IMG/VR virus record: IMGVR_UViG_3300027985_000624
Location: 1 to 38,077 of that record
Strand: one strand, 5' to 3'
From: a virus
DNA length: 38,077 bases
Made by a program: the position numbers and the translations under genes. The notes below the pieces were generated by a model. The model searched no databases, was not told the origin of the DNA, and saw only the letters and a program-made list of their open reading frames with translations. Every line of letters begins with the position of its first letter. Positions within the stretch are counted from its first letter, which is position 1. Shown piece after piece: positions 436 through 10,903 of the stretch.

Positions 436-660
436 ATGGGTAAGTTACTACATAAGCTGATTAAATGCACTGCCTTTCATCCGCTTGTTGGTAATGAAAA
501 AAGATATGGAGCGTGGCTGCCAGTAAGTGCCGCTGAACTAAAAAAAATAAAACTAAAATGTCAGATACAAAAGAAACTATCGAAACCACAAGCCATGATC
601 TATCATCGGGTGTTATGCCCCGTTTTTTTGTTGATGAAAGGGTTGGTTGTATTGCAATAA
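436..660 (+). CDS. Possible small ORF, tail doubtful
   Basis: An ORF starts at the ATG two bases after the preceding stop. The first ~38 residues (basic, then KRYGAWLPVSAAELKK) look protein-like. After an A8 run at 540-547 the composition deteriorates and the frame overlaps the next, better-supported gene by about 100 nt. One A fewer would end the ORF at once (LKK-stop); one more would fuse it in frame with the 558 gene. The run may therefore be an indel or a site of ribosomal slippage. No family recognised. Confidence 0.35.
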   Translation: MGKLLHKLIKCTAFHPLVGNEKRYGAWLPVSAAELKKIKLKCQIQKKLSKPQAMIYHRVLCPVFLLMKGLVVLQ

Positions 661-827
661 GAGATACTCAACACCCTGAATTTGACGTAGAATATCAAGG
701 ATTAGATTGTGAACTTCCTGATGTGGTGAAATTTGAAATTGGAACGCTGATAAATAATGAGTGGGTGGTTAGTGAAGAAATAATTGAGAATTTTAAATCT
801 GAATGTGCTTCCTTAAATGGGGCATAA
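558..827 (+). CDS. Small acidic hypothetical protein
   Basis: An 89-residue acidic protein with no recognisable domain, signal or membrane segment. It starts at the ATG following AACTAAA. Its stop codon TAA (825-827) lies inside the left arm of the palindrome 822-882, so the coding region ends inside the attC-like site, as is common for integron cassettes. The reading frame is more convincing than the overlapping 436 frame (balanced composition, amphipathic pattern). No function proposed. Confidence 0.6.
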   Translation: MSDTKETIETTSHDLSSGVMPRFFVDERVGCIAIRDTQHPEFDVEYQGLDCELPDVVKFEIGTLINNEWVVSEEIIENFKSECASLNGA

Positions 828-882
828 CGTAATGAATATGTGGAGGCTGAGGTACGAAGCTTACATATATTTGGTGTTGTAC
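822..882 (+). repeat. attC-like imperfect palindrome A
   Basis: The outer arms GCATAAC (822-828) and GTTGTAC (876-882) pair at 5 positions plus one G-T. The inner arms ATATGT (836-841) and ACATAT (863-868) pair perfectly. The right end continues as the shared core GTTGTACACTGGTG (876-889). The AAC...GTT ends and the two-step palindrome resemble integron attC sites (RYYYAAC...GTTRRRY), but the consensus is imperfect and recombination is not shown. Confidence 0.5.
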
Positions 883-991
883 ACTGGTGCTTATTACTGA
901 ACTATATACGAGCTACGAACCTTTTCTTTTTTGCGGGTTGGGCAAATAATTTGAAAAAATTAAGTATTTACTGAAAATAATTGCTAAAATG

Positions 992-1023
992 TTTGGAGTG
1001 TATTAAGTATATGCTTATATTTG
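992..1023 (+). promoter_or_regulatory. Bacteroidota-type promoter for the HTH gene
   Basis: TTTG (992-995), a 20-nt spacer, then TATATTTG (1016-1023), matching the Bacteroidota -33/-7 pattern TTTG...TAnnTTTG. The start codon of the HTH gene follows 40 nt later. It gives this cassette its own promoter. Confidence 0.65.
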
Positions 1024-1063
1024 TATCAGATAATTAAGTAATCAACTTTTAAAAAACAAAATT

Positions 1064-1417
1064 ATGACAACTTCAAACGAAACAATTAAAGTAGCAGCTA
1101 ACCAAAGTAAAAGAACTTTCACTATCAGAAAATATATTGATGGTAAATTATTCGCAAAGTACAGAACTATTCAAATGAGCCAAGAGGAATTTGATAGCGA
1201 GGAAATGAACACAGAGAACGATCAGATGATTATTATGCAGTATAGTATTCAGCAATTAAAAAAAGAAACTGGGCTAACTCAAAAAGACTTAGCTCAGTTT
1301 TTTGATATGACTTACGGTGCATTTGCAAATAGTAGCGCAAAAGAACGATATGAAAATGCACTATGTAGATTCTACTCTTTTTTAAGGGAGGGAGAAAAAA
1401 AAGAAAAACCAAGATAG
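1064..1417 (+). CDS. Small HTH (XRE-like) protein
   Basis: A 117-residue protein. Residues ~60-95 read as a Cro/cI-type helix-turn-helix: QLKKETGLTQKDLAQFFDMT followed by a recognition helix with YGAF and a downstream basic helix. The N-terminal ~55 residues are unrelated and include a beta-rich KRTFTIRKYIDGKLF stretch. The tail is very basic. It is probably a DNA-binding regulator, possibly the antitoxin-like or repressor payload of a cassette, though no partner toxin is adjacent. It is flanked by its own promoter (992-1023) and an attC-like palindrome (1456-1552), so it looks like a self-contained unit. Confidence 0.75.
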   Translation: MTTSNETIKVAANQSKRTFTIRKYIDGKLFAKYRTIQMSQEEFDSEEMNTENDQMIIMQYSIQQLKKETGLTQKDLAQFFDMTYGAFANSSAKERYENALCRFYSFLREGEKKEKPR

Positions 1418-1455
1418 TACGGACGTTGATACGATTGACGAACCTTGAAGCACTT

Positions 1456-1552
1456 GTGTACAACGAAAAATATATGAAACGAAGCCAAACCATAAGCCTA
1501 TCAATTTTGCACTGCACTTGATAGGCTTTGTTTTATATATGGTGTTATACAC
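1456..1552 (+). repeat. attC-like imperfect palindrome B (best example)
   Basis: The outer arms GTGTACAAC (1456-1464) and GTTATACAC (1544-1552) pair at 8 of 9. The inner arms ATATATGAAACGAAGCC (1470-1486) and GGCTTTGTTTTATATAT (1524-1540) pair at 15 of 17, the other two being G-T. The right arm is the start of the shared core GTTATACACTGGCG. The layout (outer AAC/GTT boxes, inner boxes, variable apex) is that of an integron attC. Known attC sites are recombined as folded single strands by IntI. Confidence 0.6.
1494..1534 (+). terminator. Hairpin inside palindrome B, terminator-like
   Basis: AAGCCTATCAA (1494-1504) and TTGATAGGCTT (1518-1528) form a perfect 11-bp stem with a 13-nt loop, followed by TGTTTTAT. 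It could end transcription of the HTH gene. It shares GGCTT (1524-1528) with the larger attC-like stem, so the two folds exclude each other. Confidence 0.5.
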
Positions 1553-1645
1553 TGGCGTTTTACTCGAATGTTGATTAAATGCTCTACTCTAATAATTATT
1601 TTTTTTAGGGATGGCTTTTTTATTTTAAAGTAAATAGCAAAATAC

Positions 1646-1676
1646 TTGCATTTGTATTACAAATGATATATATTTG
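1646..1676 (+). promoter_or_regulatory. Bacteroidota-type promoter for the 1701 gene
   Basis: TTG (1646-1648), 20 nt, then TATATTTG (1669-1676). The start codon at 1701 lies 25 nt downstream. It makes this cassette independently expressed. Confidence 0.55.
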
Positions 1677-1700
1677 TAGAGAACAATAAAACTAAAAGAT

Positions 1701-1961
1701 ATGACTGAGTTATTTGAATTGAATTTTGTAGACGGCAGTAAATTAATTGGAGCTGAACAAAACGGTAATGCTGTATACACTACAGTATGCGGTGGACTGG
1801 CTGATATGTTTAAGCAAGTGTTTAATAAAAAAGAGTATAGGTACATTTGTGCATTTGCTTACGAGTTAAGTAAAAACCATCAATATATTTGTGGATATAG
1901 AGATTTAGTTGCTGAAAATAGTGATAAAATAGAATCCGAACTTTTAAATAAAAACAAATGA
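1701..1961 (+). CDS. Small hypothetical protein
   Basis: An 86-residue protein. The N-terminal half is beta-like (LFELNFVDGSKLIGAEQNGN) and the second half helical and tyrosine-rich (YRYICAFAYELSKNHQYICG). No signal peptide or known motif. It has its own promoter (1646-1676), and its stop overlaps the start of the next ORF (ATGA at 1958-1961), so the two are probably translationally coupled. First of three genes in the third cassette-like unit. Function unknown. Confidence 0.6.
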   Translation: MTELFELNFVDGSKLIGAEQNGNAVYTTVCGGLADMFKQVFNKKEYRYICAFAYELSKNHQYICGYRDLVAENSDKIESELLNKNK

Positions 1962-2158
1962 CACGAACACAAAAAATATACGGTTTTAGACTTGGAACGC
2001 CATTAACACAATGGCGTGACAAGTTTGGTAACGGAGGGTTTAGAGTTATCAAACTTATACCATTACATTACTGTAACGGGCTTATGGCTATAGCTAGTAA
2101 TGGAGATTTATATACACAGAAACCATTTAATGCAATAGAGGTTAAAAACTTAATATAA
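1958..2158 (+). CDS. Small hypothetical protein, coupled
   Basis: A 66-residue basic protein with a WRDKFGNGGFRVI segment and an ASNGDLYTQKPF segment. It overlaps the preceding gene by ATGA and the following one by TAATG, which indicates a three-gene operon. No family recognised. Its position just upstream of an RHH-like protein would fit a toxin/antitoxin or regulator pair, but no toxin fold can be seen. Confidence 0.55.
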   Translation: MTRTQKIYGFRLGTPLTQWRDKFGNGGFRVIKLIPLHYCNGLMAIASNGDLYTQKPFNAIEVKNLI

Positions 2159-2316
2159 TGGCAAAAATACAACTACCAGTAAGAATTGAAAGCGAAGATT
2201 TAGAACTGCTAAAACAATACGCTAAAGATGATAACAGACCACTAAGCAACTATGTGGATACAGTGTTAAAAAACCAAATTGCTTTGGAAAAGCAAAAGCG
2301 GGAGGGTAAAAAATAA
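2158..2316 (+). CDS. Small RHH (CopG/Arc-like) protein
   Basis: A 52-residue protein starting at the ATG that overlaps the preceding stop (TAATG). It begins with a beta strand IQLPVRIE, then helix EDLELLKQYAKDD, then a turn and helix RPLSNYVDTVLKNQI, and ends in a basic tail. This strand-helix-helix pattern with the polar S-N-Y start of helix 2 is typical of ribbon-helix-helix DNA-binding proteins, often antitoxins or autoregulators. The gene is short but well placed. Whether the upstream gene is its partner cannot be told from the sequence. Confidence 0.6.
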   Translation: MAKIQLPVRIESEDLELLKQYAKDDNRPLSNYVDTVLKNQIALEKQKREGKK

Positions 2317-2329
2317 TTATTGCAAGTTT

Positions 2330-2377
2330 GCACAAGCGTTTAATCGAAGTACTGCACTTCCTACGCTTGTGTATAAC
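2330..2377 (+). repeat. Hairpin and half attC-like site C
   Basis: GCACAAGCGT (2330-2339) pairs with ACGCTTGTGT (2363-2372; one G-T), enclosing GAAGT (2346-2350)/ACTTC (2356-2360). GTATAAC (2371-2377) follows and, with the preceding CTTGT, matches the left arm of palindrome B (CTTGTGTACAACG). No GTT right arm is found downstream, so the site appears to be incomplete. Confidence 0.4.
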
Positions 2378-2496
2378 GGATGGTAATATGGCAAGTACGG
2401 CAATAACCCACTAAGCTACATACGAGAGAAAATTAAAAATAAAAAAAGGGAAGGGGAAAACTTTATAGAGTACCCAAATTTTAAATTTATAGTAAA

Positions 2497-2718
2497 ATGA
2501 GAGCAAAATTCAATTGCGACTCGGTAACTGAATACGGTTACGGAAACAAAGAGGCTAAATTGACAGCCGTGTATGATGATGGGAAACCAGAAAACAACCA
2601 ATTTGCAGAAGCTACACCAAGCGGTCAAGTAACAATTAACATTGATAAAGATGCAGTTGCTAAAGATTTTCTTGTGCCTGGTAAAACCTATTACTTAGAT
2701 TTTACCGAAGCTGAGTAA
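2497..2718 (+). CDS. Conserved phage orphan of unknown function
   Basis: A 73-residue protein with the pattern MRAKF-C-SVTEYG...KLTAVYDDGKPENNQFAEATPSGQ...I-I-DA...PGKTYYLDFTEA. I recognise this as a small beta-rich family found repeatedly in phages and prophages without a known function. It is full length, with no signal or membrane segment. It forms the last cassette-like unit before the recombinase and is followed by palindromic sequence from ~2760. No consensus promoter was seen in front of it; the leader is only AT-rich. Confidence 0.75.
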   Translation: MRAKFNCDSVTEYGYGNKEAKLTAVYDDGKPENNQFAEATPSGQVTINIDKDAVAKDFLVPGKTYYLDFTEAE

Positions 2719-2761
2719 ATGCGTGCGGTGGCTTTTTATTTTTAATTGCCCCAATTAAGCA

Positions 2762-2845
2762 CCAACCTACCCACGAGGCACGAATGTAGTATTTGCTATA
2801 TTACGTGTTATAAGCTGGCCTTATTTAGGTTGGCTTGTGGGTAGG
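2762..2845 (+). repeat. Nested inverted repeats, site D
   Basis: CCTACCCAC (2766-2774) and GTGGGTAGG (2837-2845) are perfectly complementary; CCAACC (2762-2767) and GGTTGG (2828-2833) also pair. Inside, CACG (2779-2782)+TAGTAT (2787-2792) pair with ATATTA+CGTG (2798-2807). The right end of that inner hairpin runs into the shared core GTTATAAGCTGGCC (2807-2820). It is a strongly foldable site directly before the recombinase gene. Confidence 0.5.
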
Positions 2846-2869
2846 ACTTTTAAAAGGCTTGCTTATAAC
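2807..2869 (+). repeat. Inverted repeat in front of the recombinase
   Basis: GTTATAAGC (2807-2815) is repeated in inverted orientation as GCTTATAAC (2861-2869), a perfect 9-bp match that extends to 12 of 14 (GTTATAAGCTGGCC against GGCTTGCTTATAAC). The right copy overlaps the -33 region of the recombinase promoter. This layout would suit a primary recombination site (attI- or attP-like) or an operator for autoregulation. Confidence 0.45.
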
Positions 2870-2890
2870 TAAAGTATATAACAACCTTTG
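2859..2890 (+). promoter_or_regulatory. Probable recombinase promoter
   Basis: TTG (2859-2861), 21 nt, then AACCTTTG (2883-2890), one base off TAnnTTTG. Transcription would start near 2897, too close to the ATG at 2900, which favours translation from the ATG at 2906. Confidence 0.45.
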
Positions 2891-2905
2891 TGTAAATAAT
2901 TGATT

Positions 2906-3715
2906 ATGAATGAGAAAAGTAAGGCAACTCTCAAAAAGTTTAAAAAAGAATTGAGAGTTGAAAATTATTCAAGTAACACAATAAATACATATTGTTGTTG
3001 TATTGAAACATTTTTATTGAGTTTCTGTGATGACATTTATCACATACCACAAACACAAGCTGTTGAGTTTTTGAAAAACAAATCGTACTCATCAATATCT
3101 CAACAAAATCAGTATATAAGTGCAATTAAGTTGTTGTATAAACATATTGTTGGCTCAAAACTTAATAAAATTAGCGTCAAAAGACCAAGAAAAGAAAAAC
3201 GTCTACCAAAAGCCATAGATGAGTCATTCTTAAAAGAAAAGATTAACACAATAGACAATCTTAAACATAAAGCCATACTACACCTCACATACAGTACAGG
3301 CATGAGAAGGTCTGAGATAGTAAATTTAAAGATAGACCACATTGACGGTAAAAGAAAAACGGTGACAGTTGTTCAAGGCAAAGGAAACAAGGATAGGATT
3401 ATCCCCATCTCAAACAAAACACTTAAGTCATTAAGAGAATATTTTATAAAACATAAACCTAAAGAGTGTTTGTTTAACGGACAGGGAAGCCTTCAGTATA
3501 GTGCTGAGAGTTGCAATAAGCTTGTGAAGAAGTATATTGGATCAAAGCATTCAATGCACCAATTGCGCCACAGTTTCGCCACACACTTGGTTAATAGGGG
3601 TGTAGACCTAGCAGTAATAGGGGAATTACTTGGACATGAGAATGAATCAACAACAAAAGTGTACGCTAAGATAAGTGTTGGAAATTTAAGTAAAGTAATT
3701 GATTTGTTAGATTAA
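2906..3715 (+). CDS. int: Tyrosine recombinase/integrase (XerC/D-like)
   Basis: A 269-residue recombinase with a SAM-like N-terminal core-binding domain (residues ~1-85) and a complete catalytic domain. Visible residues are R in TGMRRSEIV (~135), the KGNKDR beta-hairpin lysine, H and R in HQLRHSFATHL, H in LLGHENESTT and the nucleophile Y in KVYAKI. The ~20-residue insertion that characterises integron IntI proteins between the Lys and HxxR motifs is not seen, so by itself this is a XerC/D-like phage enzyme. It sits immediately after the cassette-like array and its nested inverted repeats. An in-frame ATG at 2900 exists, but 2906 is preferred because of the promoter position. Its stop overlaps the next start (TAATG). 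Confidence 0.9.
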   Translation: MNEKSKATLKKFKKELRVENYSSNTINTYCCCIETFLLSFCDDIYHIPQTQAVEFLKNKSYSSISQQNQYISAIKLLYKHIVGSKLNKISVKRPRKEKRLPKAIDESFLKEKINTIDNLKHKAILHLTYSTGMRRSEIVNLKIDHIDGKRKTVTVVQGKGNKDRIIPISNKTLKSLREYFIKHKPKECLFNGQGSLQYSAESCNKLVKKYIGSKHSMHQLRHSFATHLVNRGVDLAVIGELLGHENESTTKVYAKISVGNLSKVIDLLD

Positions 3716-6019: not shown

Positions 6020-6583
6020 ATGAAAGTAGATGGAATTGAATATAGGCTTATTAACTTCAAGAAATACACAGATTGTTACGATTGCCCAAATTTTGAGAAG
6101 GAAAAATGTAAAGTTCATTACGAATATGGTTGCGATGGACACAATATCCCATTTCCGATTAAAGTAGAAAGACAAAACCTAGACTCAGCGTTTGATGAAA
6201 TAGAAGAAGATCCCCTCTCAATTCAAGTTGGAGGAGATCACTACAAGGGGTGGGGAATACAGCCAGTAGAGTTTACTGAGACAAACAATCTTACATTCAG
6301 TGAGGGGAACATTGTTAAATACATAACAAGACATAAAAGCAAAAATGGTGTTCAAGATGTAGAGAAAGTTGTACATTATGTTGATTTTGTAAAAAAATAC
6401 AGAAATTCTAGCACCCAAAGAACATTAAGTATATCAGCAATTGACTTTATTGCGTCTAATAGTCTTGGTTTTTTGGAAGGTAGAGCCATTGAAGCATTGT
6501 GTAACTATGTTGAGTCTGGAGAAACATCTCACTTAGATACAGTTAAAGCTATGGCTGAAAAAATAATTGAAACTTACGATTAA
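6020..6583 (+). CDS. DUF3310-domain phage protein
   Basis: A 187-residue protein. The N-terminal ~50 residues contain a Cys/His-rich stretch (CYDCPNFEKEKC...CDGH) that may bind zinc. The central part, VGGDHYKGWGIQPVEF...NIVKYITRHKSKNGVQDVEKVVHYVDF (~70-125), is the characteristic DUF3310 pattern found in many phages; its biochemical role is not settled. The ~60 C-terminal residues are an extra, unrecognised helical region. Its stop TAA overlaps the ATG of the polymerase gene (TAATG), so it is translationally coupled to polymerase. Confidence 0.8.
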   Translation: MKVDGIEYRLINFKKYTDCYDCPNFEKEKCKVHYEYGCDGHNIPFPIKVERQNLDSAFDEIEEDPLSIQVGGDHYKGWGIQPVEFTETNNLTFSEGNIVKYITRHKSKNGVQDVEKVVHYVDFVKKYRNSSTQRTLSISAIDFIASNSLGFLEGRAIEALCNYVESGETSHLDTVKAMAEKIIETYD

Positions 6584-8124
6584 TGAACAACTTCATAGAG
6601 TATTTAATTGAAAACAAAATCGCCCACACACAAATAGCCGACAATGTTGTAGATATAGATGGAAAGTCTCACTGCTTAATCAAACCTCAAGGTGGATTGT
6701 TATTTGATGAGGAGTTTAAGTTTATTCAAGGCGGAGTTGGGTGGGACTATCACGCATTTCTGTTTGGCGGCAGATATTATCGAATTGAGTGTGGGTTTGA
6801 AGAGGACTTTCAGTTAGATGAGGTGATATATGTCGGAAAAGCTGACGTTAGTTTTGAAACAACAACCTTCCTTGGGGTTCATGGTGGATATGAGTTATTG
6901 AGAGGTAGTCGTAGCTATGAAGATTGGTGCAAAAAAGCCAAGTTTTTAGGGCTAGAGAGTTTGGGGATATGTGAAAAAGGAACACTTGCAGGAACAATGA
7001 AGTTTCAACAAACGTGTCTAAAAAATGAAATCAAGCCGATACTAGGAGCTTCATATAGTGTAAAGAGGGGGAGTTTGAAGTACGACATAAAGCTGTACGC
7101 AAAGGATGAGATAGGGTGGATGCACCTATTGGAGCTTAATTATATCAACAACGTTGAAAATAACGGCTTTGTTTGTGAAACAGATATGTTCAATAGAGAA
7201 GAGGGCTTGTATGTTGTTGTAGATCCCAAAACTATACAATATGAAGATTTATTCCCCCTTGATTTGCATGAAGTGTATTATCAACTAGATACAGTGCACT
7301 ACAAGAATGAGGAAGAGGATAAGTATTATCTGCAAAACCTAAAGAAGTTTATAGATAGTGACTTAAAGCCAGTTTTGTTGAATGATGCGTACTACTTAGA
7401 GAAGAGGGACTACTTTATAAAAGATAGACTTGAAACCATTGGAAAGAACCATGACCTAAAGACATATAATCAATACTTTAAGTCAAATGATGACGTTCTT
7501 ATGGAGTTATCGGAGTTATCAAAAGACGATGATAAGATGTGGGGTGTCTACACAGAGGCAGTAAAGAACTCAATTGAGATTTCAGACAACTGCAACTTTG
7601 AGATAGACACAAAGAATCGACATCTGCCAAAGTATATAATGACAGAGGAAGAGCGTCTGCTATATAAGGACAATAAGGATATGTTTATGTCTTTAATTGA
7701 AGATGGGTTAATGAAACTATATCCAGACTTCACAAATGAGCACATTGAGAGGATTGAATATGAGATGGATGTTTTGGAGACAGGTGGCGTTGTTGATTAT
7801 TTTTTGAACACCAGAGATGTGCTTAATGCCTCAACAGAGGAGCATATTTTGACTGGTGTGGCAAGGGGCAGTAGTGGTGGAAGTATTATATCTTACCTTC
7901 TTGGAATAATAAAGATAGACCCCATACAGTTTGACCTTTTGTTTGATAGGTTCTTAACTAAAGATCGTTTAGGGCAATTGGTTGACTCTGAGGTTTTTGA
8001 AATAGAGATGAGTGATGGTAGTGTAAAAACGATGTACCCAGACACAAAAACTATTATCATAAGGGACGGCAATAAGTTTGTTGGGTTGCCGCATGAAATT
8101 AAAGAGGGAGATGAAATATTATGA
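6583..8124 (+). CDS. DNA polymerase III alpha, N-terminal part
   Basis: 513 residues. After a ~95-residue N-terminal extension comes a PHP-like domain (GVHGGYELLRGSRSYEDWCKK...LGASYS). Its usual metal ligands (HxH, DHG) are replaced by VHGG and CEKG, so PHP phosphatase or exonuclease activity is unlikely. The C-terminal ~120 residues enter the C-family palm: TGVARGSSGGSIISYLLGI and LLFDRFLTKDR. In other alpha subunits LPDIDxDF follows soon after. Here ~50 residues (EVFEIEMSDGSVKT...IKEGDEIL) intervene and the frame ends. The stop overlaps the ATG at 8121 (ATGA), so the product is only half of a polymerase. Confidence 0.9.
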   Translation: MNNFIEYLIENKIAHTQIADNVVDIDGKSHCLIKPQGGLLFDEEFKFIQGGVGWDYHAFLFGGRYYRIECGFEEDFQLDEVIYVGKADVSFETTTFLGVHGGYELLRGSRSYEDWCKKAKFLGLESLGICEKGTLAGTMKFQQTCLKNEIKPILGASYSVKRGSLKYDIKLYAKDEIGWMHLLELNYINNVENNGFVCETDMFNREEGLYVVVDPKTIQYEDLFPLDLHEVYYQLDTVHYKNEEEDKYYLQNLKKFIDSDLKPVLLNDAYYLEKRDYFIKDRLETIGKNHDLKTYNQYFKSNDDVLMELSELSKDDDKMWGVYTEAVKNSIEISDNCNFEIDTKNRHLPKYIMTEEERLLYKDNKDMFMSLIEDGLMKLYPDFTNEHIERIEYEMDVLETGGVVDYFLNTRDVLNASTEEHILTGVARGSSGGSIISYLLGIIKIDPIQFDLLFDRFLTKDRLGQLVDSEVFEIEMSDGSVKTMYPDTKTIIIRDGNKFVGLPHEIKEGDEIL

Positions 8125-8186
8125 AAGTTGAACACATTAAAAGGTATGATGGGCAGAGGGTTGTAAATGGCTCTCTGCCTGACTAA
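8121..8186 (+). CDS. Short bridging ORF of the split polymerase
   Basis: 21 codons from the ATG overlapping the previous stop: MKVEHIKRYDGQRVVNGSLPD, ending in TAA at 8184-8186. It is in the same frame as the large C-terminal part and carries the start of the catalytic motif (LPD). The sequence after the stop continues T-DIDSDF. If this ORF and the next were one gene they would span 8121-10157. GAGGGAG at 8104-8110 could act as a weak Shine-Dalgarno. Confidence 0.5.
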   Translation: MKVEHIKRYDGQRVVNGSLPD

Positions 8187-8192
8187 ACTGAT
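8184..8192 (+). other. Nine-base interruption of the catalytic Asp motif
   Basis: TAA ACT GAT. Codons run CTG CCT GAC [TAA ACT GAT] ATT GAT TCT GAC TTT. Without the nine bases the protein reads LPDIDSDF, the canonical C-family metal-binding motif. The bases are framed by two Asp codons (GAC before, GAT as the last codon), which is the codon geometry used in translational bypassing. A real insertion, a decayed gene or an assembly error are alternatives. Confidence 0.6.
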
Positions 8193-8240
8193 ATTGATTC
8201 TGACTTTGAGGGGGCAGCTAGACCTTGGGTTAAGTCATAT

Positions 8241-10157
8241 ATGGAAAAAAGGTTTGGCGAAACACAAGTTTGCTCTGTTGGCACATACACCACAATGAAA
8301 CTAAAGGGAGCTATAAAAGATTTAGCAAAACTTCACAACATTGATTTTCAAGAAGCCAATCTCATAACGTCAATAATTGAGGATGACGACAAAACAATGA
8401 CAGATTTGTTTAAGAGGGCTGCCATTGAACCAAAATTAAAAAAGTTTATTCAAAAGAATTGGGGCTTGTTTTATGAACTACCATTACTTTTGGGTCAGCC
8501 AAAAGCTAGATCGGTTCATGCGTGTGCTTTGATGGTTTTTCCGCAAGACAGACACATGAAGCATTGGACACCTGTAGTGAATCACGATGGTCTGATGGTG
8601 TCTGAATATGAAGGGACAGAGTTGGATGGGGCTGGGTTTTTAAAATTTGATGTACTTGGAATCAAGCAACTTGACAAGTTCAAGGATATTCTTAGGCGAA
8701 TTGAAGCTAATGGAAAAGAAGTTCCAGATATTTACAACTTGCCACTTGATGACGAGAAGGTTTATGGGTACTTTAGTCAAGGGTGGAACAGTGATGTGTT
8801 TCAGTTTGGGTCTCAAGGCTTAACAGGCTACACAAAACAATTAAAGCCAAGTAACATTGACGACCTTATCGCTTGTGTAGCTCTATATAGACCAGGGGCT
8901 ATGGAGCACGGGTTTCATGAGGAGTACATTAAGAGAAAAAATGGCGAGTCGAACATTGAGTACATTTGGGGTACAGAAGAGATACTTAAAGACACTTATG
9001 GACTTTTAGTATTTCAAGAAAGCGTTCTTAAGATATGTTCCCAATTAGGAAATATATCACCATCAGACTCATCAAAGGTGCTTAAAGCTCTTGGTAAAAA
9101 GAAAGTCGAAGTCTTGAAGCCGTTTGAGAGTCAGTTCTTAAAGGGTGTTGTTGATAATGGAGGCACTGAGGAGGTGGCAAATGAGCTTTGGGGGTACATG
9201 TTAAGTGCATCATTGTATTTATTTAATTTAAGTCATTCTGCTGCTTATGCAATTACTGGATATATAGGGCAATGGCTAAAAGTTCACTACCCACTAGAAT
9301 ATTGGGCAACTGCCTTTAGTTTTGCTGATGAGGATCACACCCCAAGGTTTTTGTCTGAGATTAGAGATTCTGGTATTGTAAAAGTAATGTCTCCAGACAT
9401 AAATTTATCAGAAACTTTTATTCAGTCTGATGCTGAAACAAACTCTTTGTTTTGGGCACTATCTTCAATAAAAAACGTTGGAGAGAAAGCTACAGATCAA
9501 ATAATGGCGATGAGACCAAAAAGGGGCTATTCCTCATTAAGTGAATTTGTGGAGATACACAATTTTAAAGGAAGTAAGGTAAACAAACGTGTTTATGAAG
9601 GACTAATACTATCAGGTGCATTTGATGGAATAGAGGGTATTGACATTCCCAGAAAGAGAACTAATTTACTATTCGCGTATTGGGAATTGGCTGATGTTAA
9701 AGTTGATGAATCTAAATCTTGGTATCATAAGAATTTTAGTTCTATAAGACAAGATGAGATTTGGTTGTTGGAACAGAAGCGTTTATCTGGATTAGCTTTC
9801 TTTAACTACAAGCAATTGTGCTTAGATCACTTGGACTGCTCAGACTTTATATCAAATCAAACGTTGAGTGAGCCTATAGTGAAAGGCTTTGGCTGTTTGG
9901 GGGGTGTGGTGTCAGAGGCTTTTGAGAGAAGAGGAGCTAAAGGTAAATACTGCAAACTCATAATTGAATCAAACTACGAGTTTCATAATGTGACGATATG
10001 GAGTGAAGAGTGGGAGAAGCTTGATGTAGATGTGAATGATTTGCCAGGATCTATACTTTTAATTCAAGGCAATATAGCTTATGATGAGAGATATACGCAG
10101 TCAAATCAGATAGTCGCAACAGAAAAAGGTAAAATAAAGTTCATAAAAAGTTTGTAG
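8241..10157 (+). CDS. DNA polymerase III alpha, C-terminal part
   Basis: Open in frame from 8187; the first ATG is 8241, giving 638 residues. It carries VCSVGTYTTMKLKGAIKDL, the palm Asp segment FLKFDVLGIKQLDK, fingers (YRPGAMEHGFHEEY, GLLVFQESVLKI, NLSHSAAYAITGY), the tandem HhH region (IKNVGEKATDQIM) and a C-terminal OB-like part. Starting at 8241 would lose DIDSD, two of the three catalytic aspartates (encoded at 8190-8204). No ATG, GTG or TTG in that stretch would keep them. Activity therefore requires passing the TAA at 8184, reassembly of fragments, or a corrected sequence. Together with the first part the length (~1190) is normal for alpha. Confidence 0.88.
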   Translation: MEKRFGETQVCSVGTYTTMKLKGAIKDLAKLHNIDFQEANLITSIIEDDDKTMTDLFKRAAIEPKLKKFIQKNWGLFYELPLLLGQPKARSVHACALMVFPQDRHMKHWTPVVNHDGLMVSEYEGTELDGAGFLKFDVLGIKQLDKFKDILRRIEANGKEVPDIYNLPLDDEKVYGYFSQGWNSDVFQFGSQGLTGYTKQLKPSNIDDLIACVALYRPGAMEHGFHEEYIKRKNGESNIEYIWGTEEILKDTYGLLVFQESVLKICSQLGNISPSDSSKVLKALGKKKVEVLKPFESQFLKGVVDNGGTEEVANELWGYMLSASLYLFNLSHSAAYAITGYIGQWLKVHYPLEYWATAFSFADEDHTPRFLSEIRDSGIVKVMSPDINLSETFIQSDAETNSLFWALSSIKNVGEKATDQIMAMRPKRGYSSLSEFVEIHNFKGSKVNKRVYEGLILSGAFDGIEGIDIPRKRTNLLFAYWELADVKVDESKSWYHKNFSSIRQDEIWLLEQKRLSGLAFFNYKQLCLDHLDCSDFISNQTLSEPIVKGFGCLGGVVSEAFERRGAKGKYCKLIIESNYEFHNVTIWSEEWEKLDVDVNDLPGSILLIQGNIAYDERYTQSNQIVATEKGKIKFIKSL

Positions 10158-10558: not shown

Positions 10559-10630
10559 GGGGTGGTAGCTAAGTGGTTCTAGCGCTGATGTGAATAATCA
10601 GAGGTGTTGGTTCGATTCCAACTCTCCCCA
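10559..10630 (+). tRNA. tRNA, anticodon GAA (Phe-like)
   Basis: Cloverleaf read by eye: acceptor GGGGTGG with TCTCCCC (one T-T mismatch at pair 5-68, one G-T), D-stem GCTA/TAGC with GG in the loop, anticodon stem CTGAT/ATCAG with loop GTGAATA (T33, anticodon GAA), short variable loop, T-arm GTTGG-TTCGATT-CCAAC, discriminator A. CCA is not encoded. T at position 37 is unusual for tRNA-Phe, so the identity is provisional. It lies between the structured region and an aberrant second tRNA. Confidence 0.7.
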
Positions 10631-10804
10631 CAGTTAAAATATTAATATGCATAAAAACAAACAGCTAATAACTGATGCATTTAAAGATTCGTTAGAGCAT
10701 ATTTTCTAGAGATATGTAAACTTACTAGCTAATGGGTGAATTTAGTAATTTTTAAAGTCAACGACCTCTCTGTGGTTATTGTTTAGCATATATGTGTATT
10801 AATA

Positions 10805-10871
10805 GGAGATTCGTCTAGTGGTTAGGGCAGTTCTTAGCGGAATTAACGGAGGTTCGAGTCCTCCATCTCCA
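10805..10871 (+). tRNA. tRNA-like gene with shortened anticodon arm
   Basis: The D-arm TCGTCTAGTGGTTAGGG is of the tRNA-Glu type. The T-arm GGAGG-TTCGAGT-CCTCC is perfect and the acceptor GGAGAT/ATCTCC has only 6 bp. Between the D- and T-arms there are 19 nt instead of 22-23. The best fold is AGTTC/GAATT with a 6-nt loop TTAGCG and a 3-nt variable region. The anticodon is ambiguous (AGC or TAG by position). Either a degenerate tRNA or a non-canonical one. Confidence 0.5.
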
Positions 10872-10903
10872 CTATTAAATTATTAATCTTAAAAGAGAAA
10901 ACT

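Follow-up and report, generated by a model that had tools for sequence, protein, structure and literature searches.

How can a phage obtain a complete replicative DNA polymerase from a gene that has an in-frame stop codon inside its active-site motif? This question is raised by dnaE, the gene for the polymerase alpha subunit, in the IMG/VR record analyzed here (38077 bases, hereafter the window). In the window, dnaE consists of two genes, N and C, both on the plus strand. The N gene (positions 6583 to 8124) encodes the PHP domain and the N-terminal half of the Pol III alpha palm (Pfam matches PHP, 2.8e-12, and DNA_pol3_alpha, 2.7e-23), followed by a C-terminal extension of about 50 amino acids where the protein is split. 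The TGA that ends this gene overlaps the ATG of the C gene (8121) as ATGA. The C gene opens with a reading frame for a 21-amino-acid leader, MKVEHIKRYDGQRVVNGSLPD (8121 to 8183), and past a gap it continues with IDSDF, the rest of the palm, the fingers and HHH (8193 to 10157; Pfam matches finger domain, 6e-42, DNA_pol3_alpha, 2e-22, and HHH_6, 2.3e-14). The IDSDF frame is open from 8193 to 10157, without a second stop.

The sequence from 8175 to 8204 reads CTG CCT GAC TAA ACT GAT ATT GAT TCT GAC. The initial annotation had reported a TAA in frame inside LPDIDxDF, with GAC directly before it and GAT as the landing codon, and this reading was confirmed: the TAA occupies 8184 to 8186 (LPD-stop-TDIDSDF), GAC, the take-off codon and the codon of the catalytic Asp of LPD, ends the leader at 8181 to 8183, and GAT lies at 8190 to 8192, the end of a 9-nt coding gap, TAAACTGAT (8184 to 8192). 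It had also stated that no usual start codon after the TAA saves the Asp pair, and indeed ATG, GTG and TTG are absent from that frame between the TAA and the DID codons. Two features expected of a bypassing site are observed here, namely a stop directly 3' of the take-off codon (GAC TAA, 8181 to 8186) and take-off and landing codons, GAC and GAT, that both specify Asp and are expected to be read by the same tRNA. We consider it quite probable that programmed translational bypassing, involving a 5' stem-loop, is the way in which the C gene of this split dnaE is decoded; this reading rests on sequence analysis without protein, reporter or ribosome-profiling data. We do not put it more strongly, because no protein has been shown and the TAA of the window comes from one assembly.

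The ATGA junction and the TAA

According to the initial annotation, the alpha subunit is cut by the ATGA junction and then by the TAA. Both are present, but the ATGA proved to be a conserved split and not a lesion. Cellulophaga phage phiST and Tenacibaculum phage Larrie have the same split position with a similar N tail and C leader, and leaders homologous to that of the window, of the form MK(V/I)..NGTLPD, were found in both phages and in IMG/VR relatives. Judging from this shared position, the split is an old arrangement that is ordinary for the group of the window, phiST and Larrie. In these two phages, LPDIDxDF is unbroken and has no gap; thus, in the window dnaE the ATGA junction has to be considered apart from the TAA. 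Relatives without the TAA, whose discovery had been named in advance as grounds for refutation, therefore do exist, but they do not refute bypassing, because some lineages carry the putative bypass element and others lack it. No close relative of the window contig was found (the nearest has about 47% amino acid identity), and the C protein as query of a single-protein scan gave no match in IMG/VR.

At the split point, a paired N tail and C leader are seen in the window (7970 to 8183) and in the relatives L001, L002, L009, L085 and L348; L085 and L348 have a similar insert that runs on in frame without interruption. The tail of L009 has a weak resemblance to Intein_splicing (E 0.0015, below the cut-off). 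Such pairs may, as far as can be told from their sequences, be a split intein that has decayed and whose one remaining role is to keep the halves together. A split-intein reading of the ATGA junction of the window was rejected, since its tail has no intein match and no Asn stands directly before the C junction. In L344, a second split in the N part (626 to 3422) has sub-threshold Pfam Intein_splicing matches on both pieces (9.7e-05 and 0.021) and is probably a natural split intein in the same polymerase. L003 has an intein-like insert in the finger region (2090 to 2500; KCVSF...TCNSHAAA). In L009 and L127, a Dda/PIF1-like helicase gene lies between the N and C polymerase genes.

Recurrence of the break in relatives

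Relatives were gathered from phage records, IMG/VR and GTDB genomes, and 103 distinct junctions were classified (55 split and 48 unsplit, with one more locus left unassigned). The junction is broken at the codon between LP(D) and (I/V)DxD in 10 of the 55 split dnaE genes and in none of the 48 unsplit ones. Besides the window, the broken loci are nine, from about six further lineages, one of them from an isolate (Bacteroides sp. 224). To judge from these records, the break at the catalytic codon is not a one-off; it forms a recurrent family in split dnaE of Bacteroidota-type phages. Degenerate DNA patterns for more broken sites returned mostly ordinary DFPDIDTDF motifs or unrelated DNA, plus L174/L349, and in wider sampling of Bacteroidaceae and Bacteroidales genomes, every match with a junction that was read proved to be intact.

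The gap is 9 nt in the window (TAAACTGAT, take-off GAC, landing GAT), 40 nt in L003 (human gut phage MT835601; GAT to GAT), 5 nt in L344 (TAATT; ATT to ATT) and about 34 to 37 nt in L346 (GAC or GAG to GAA). It is 7 nt in L007 (MT835494; TAAGGCG, CCG to GCG), in L061 and L066 (TAACTCG, CCG to TCG) and in L349 (TAAGTCG, CCG to TCG), 8 nt in L127 (the Bacteroides sp. 224 isolate; TAAGGTCG, CCG to TCG) and 1 nt in L017 (T, CCC to CCT). The landing codon is identical to the take-off codon in L003 and L344, and in the group with HNH genes only two of the three letters match. A stop codon would stand in the A site at 8 of the 10 loci; L003 has none there, and in L346 it depends on the take-off codon used. 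Skipping the gap restores the LPD-x-D motif at all ten loci, with one residue of doubt in L346, and requires frame changes of 0, +1 and +2.

These frame relations bear on other ways in which the C gene could be decoded. Readthrough of the UAA in the window, which the initial annotation had listed as an alternative, would insert one residue and Thr-Asp, giving LPD-x-TD-IDSDF with D-I-D intact three residues later, and the frame would be kept, the gap being a multiple of three. However, none of L003, L007, L061, L066, L127, L349, L344, L346 and L017 has a gap length divisible by three, and the three added residues would fall in the catalytic loop. Furthermore, UAA is generally the least leaky stop codon, and we regard readthrough as quite improbable. 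Elsewhere in the window, a tRNA-like gene with a short anticodon loop was noticed at 10804 to 10872 (two-letter anticodon in ARAGORN; Rfam tRNA 35 bits, above the cut-off), adjoining a normal tRNA-Phe gene at 10559 to 10631; the idea that this downstream tRNA is a suppressor was abandoned because evidence for it was lacking.

Programmed +1 or -1 frameshifting instead of bypassing is suggested by L017, which has CCC_UGA_C, and CCC_UGA is a known shift-prone site (PMC5009743). L017, with 6 perfect bp and a 1-nt gap, is the weaker case among the ten and may reflect nothing more than a +1 frameshift at CCC_UGA. The window, however, needs no frame change and yet has a stop, and at most loci a frameshift on its own would lengthen the catalytic motif by extra residues. 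L127 and L349 have the cassette and the hairpin type in common (HNH 57% and C body 73% identical, with endonuclease, leader and polymerase diverging together), but their gaps differ by 1 nt and require +2 and +1, respectively, so that no single frameshift explains both. A one-base +1 shift was rejected on these grounds, and we find frameshifting scarcely credible as the general explanation. Since the frame relations differ among the loci, one frameshift or readthrough is excluded as the common answer; as far as the reading frames indicate, hopping accounts for all ten gaps and no single frameshift or readthrough does.

It could also be supposed that two polypeptides are made, a leader peptide ending in LPD at the stop and a C protein from a non-standard or out-of-frame start. 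The downstream frame has a TTG in L003, L007 and L061 and an ATG in L349 and L017, but it has no canonical start in the window, L127, L344 or L346, and a start at the Ile codon would drop the catalytic Asp of LPD. Separate initiation is thus very unlikely in our estimation.

A hairpin directly before the take-off codon

In the window, a 5' stem-loop of 12 bp was predicted by RNAfold at 8151 to 8180 on the plus strand, ending directly at the take-off codon; it had not been noted in the initial annotation. Its folding energy is -19.3 kcal/mol (z -3.79), and none of 200 shuffled sequences was equally stable. The window has 2482 codon-stop positions, 10 of which have a Watson-Crick stem of at least 7 bp ending 0 to 1 nt before the codon, and the stem at 8151 to 8180 is the longest of these ten when G-U pairs are allowed. 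The fold of the window has no structure 3' of GAC, where a take-off stem-loop in the A site or gap was looked for; strong hairpins within the gap were found only in L003 and L346.

A perfect stem of 7 to 10 bp ending 0 to 2 nt before the take-off codon is observed in 9 of the 10 broken loci (7, 8, 9, 9, 9, 9, 8, 10 and 10 bp; L017 has 6), whereas only 5 of the 93 intact loci have a stem of at least 7 bp, although three registers were permitted. By Fisher's test, with six lineages against the 93 intact loci, the enrichment has p 4.1e-7 by lineage and 3e-6 with L017 counted as a failure. Besides the window, the stem ends at the corresponding place in 8 of the 9 broken loci, and in RNAfold the hairpins are flush with the take-off codon, within 1 to 2 nt. 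The stem of the window is the shortest perfect one among the nine loci (7 Watson-Crick bp; 12 bp in RNAfold with G-U). In the HNH group, 4 of 9 pairs have changed on both sides and pairing is 100%; this covariation rests on three distinct sequences and is supportive, not conclusive. Among the features predicted for the broken loci, the stem ending right before the take-off codon is the strongest that they have in common. The TAA of the window, which rests on one assembly without a near relative, fits this family in its stop, codon match and stem. The original suggestion that TAAACTGAT is bypassed between GAC and GAT is thus supported by relatives that break the same codon, with varied gap and frame and with the hairpin in the same place; the same variation, with the hairpin at the same position, does not fit readthrough, one frameshift or error.

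Two intact LPD sites, in L136 (3440 to 3500) and L020 (2400 to 2465), have a bypass-like hairpin and no gap, and L136 around the site resembles L061 minus its seven gap bases. Such sites are possible precursors or revertants.

Conservation of the downstream genes

The gene may be dead, or the TAA may be a sequence or assembly error, with the phage using another polymerase. The window is a metagenomic contig without available reads, and phiST and Larrie lack the stop. However, independent records, among them the isolate Bacteroides sp. 224 and two metagenomic contigs that are 92% identical, break the same codon with conserved hairpins, and none of the ten broken loci has an interruption in the leader frame or the downstream frame (for L174/L349 on extended sequence). 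L061 and L066 are both broken, and over the 690 codons past the gap they show 133 synonymous and 11 non-synonymous differences (dN/dS 0.019), a pattern indicative of purifying selection on the downstream genes of broken relatives. We therefore take a dead gene or an error to be unlikely. The cassettes of L061 and L066 (90.3% identical) have diverged as far as the backbone (93%); the two loci thus probably separated after the break had arisen. For L017-L018 and L007-L113, dN/dS was excluded as proof, because those breaks may be recent.

Homing endonucleases at the junction

In L007, L061, L066, L127 and L349, the C gene is immediately preceded by a NUMOD4/HNH_3-type gene (an HNH homologue in L349), and a GIY-YIG-like gene, assigned by eye and by 34% mutual identity without a Pfam match, is present in L003 and L346. 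The association of endonuclease and break (p 1.6e-4) was noticed after looking and is to be discounted. An endonuclease gene is absent from the junction in the window and L344; the window has no open reading frame between the N and C genes, and its endonuclease was presumably either lost or absent from the outset.

L007 and L061 are mosaics with two HNH genes each, one of them resident and the other acquired along with the leader, hairpin and TAA. HNH, leader, hairpin and TAA of L007 are related to those of L061, the backbone after the GAT is like that of the clean loci L071 and L062, and the observed identity patterns switch at about the GAT past the gap. In the intact loci with the second HNH type (n=3), the LP codons are replaced (QLA-D, TMS-D and SCG-D). 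This pattern looks like the target-site immunity of a homing endonuclease that has been proposed for T4 gene 60 (PMC5009743). Where homing endonucleases adjoin, the element most likely interrupts the endonuclease target and gives self-immunity, the target itself being inferred.

Loci with the first HNH type read GG(H/Y)ASLPD, and relatives without the endonuclease read GGHSALPD. The tandem HNH genes of L061 (2312 to 3399) and L007 (1973 to 2838) are apparently one homing cassette stacked on another. The mobA name and the cassette model reportedly come from Bonocora et al. in 2011.

Proposed mechanism

In the proposed bypassing, the ribosome would translate the 21-codon leader and stall when GAC (Asp) occupies the P site and UAA the A site. 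It would then release the GAC codon, and the stem-loop directly behind the P site would close as the mRNA exits, pushing the ribosome forward. Peptidyl-tRNA-Asp would re-pair with GAU 9 nt downstream and decoding would restart at AUU, giving an unbroken LPDIDSDF active site. This movement of the ribosome and the motor role of the stem are inferred only; by inference, too, a hairpin abutting the take-off codon would suit short hops. Where the element interrupts an endonuclease target, bypassing would repair the protein.

These sites may constitute a new mechanistic class, in which a hairpin abutting the take-off codon is the driving force of bypassing, no long nascent-peptide signal is needed, and the element has arisen repeatedly at one catalytic codon as a by-product of self-immunity of homing endonucleases; we offer this tentatively, as a proposal that could well prove mistaken. 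No report of bypassing in dnaE was found in a literature search limited to open-licence papers. They occur naturally at one codon, most of them with short gaps and in several frames, and with both broken and intact relatives at hand the roles of hairpin, stop and codon match can be tested by comparing them. They further suggest that homing endonucleases have time and again imposed recoding on essential genes and that polymerases bypassed in this way escape gene callers.

Comparison with known bypassing systems

Among phages, programmed bypassing has to our knowledge been studied well only in T4 gene 60. Like the window dnaE, it is a split phage replication gene with a stop right after the take-off codon, a landing codon for the same tRNA and a gap that interrupts a conserved site. 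Both have a 5' stem-loop that would fold behind the ribosome, and that of gene 60 is thought to zipper as the mRNA leaves the ribosome (PMC5009743, PMC11194080). The homing endonuclease just upstream in T4 gene 60/mobA has counterparts in several of the relatives, whereas the window junction has none. The gap of gene 60 is 50 nt, compared with 9 nt in the window and 1 to 40 nt in the relatives, and its KKYK nascent-peptide signal lies about 30 amino acids from the take-off codon, for which the 21-amino-acid leader of the window is too short. Unlike in gene 60, the gene is dnaE, the hosts are Bacteroidota and the stem ends directly at the take-off codon. The mitochondrial byp elements of Magnusiomyces capitatus are also short inserts that are bypassed, some with imperfectly matched codons (PMC5009743). 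However, the 81 byp instances are apparently independent of mRNA context, whereas the dnaE sites lie at a single codon in a single gene and have a dedicated hairpin. Synthetic stop-hops likewise involve a short hop across a stop between matched codons (PMC5009743), but these are laboratory constructs, whereas the dnaE sites are natural and have a recurrent hairpin.
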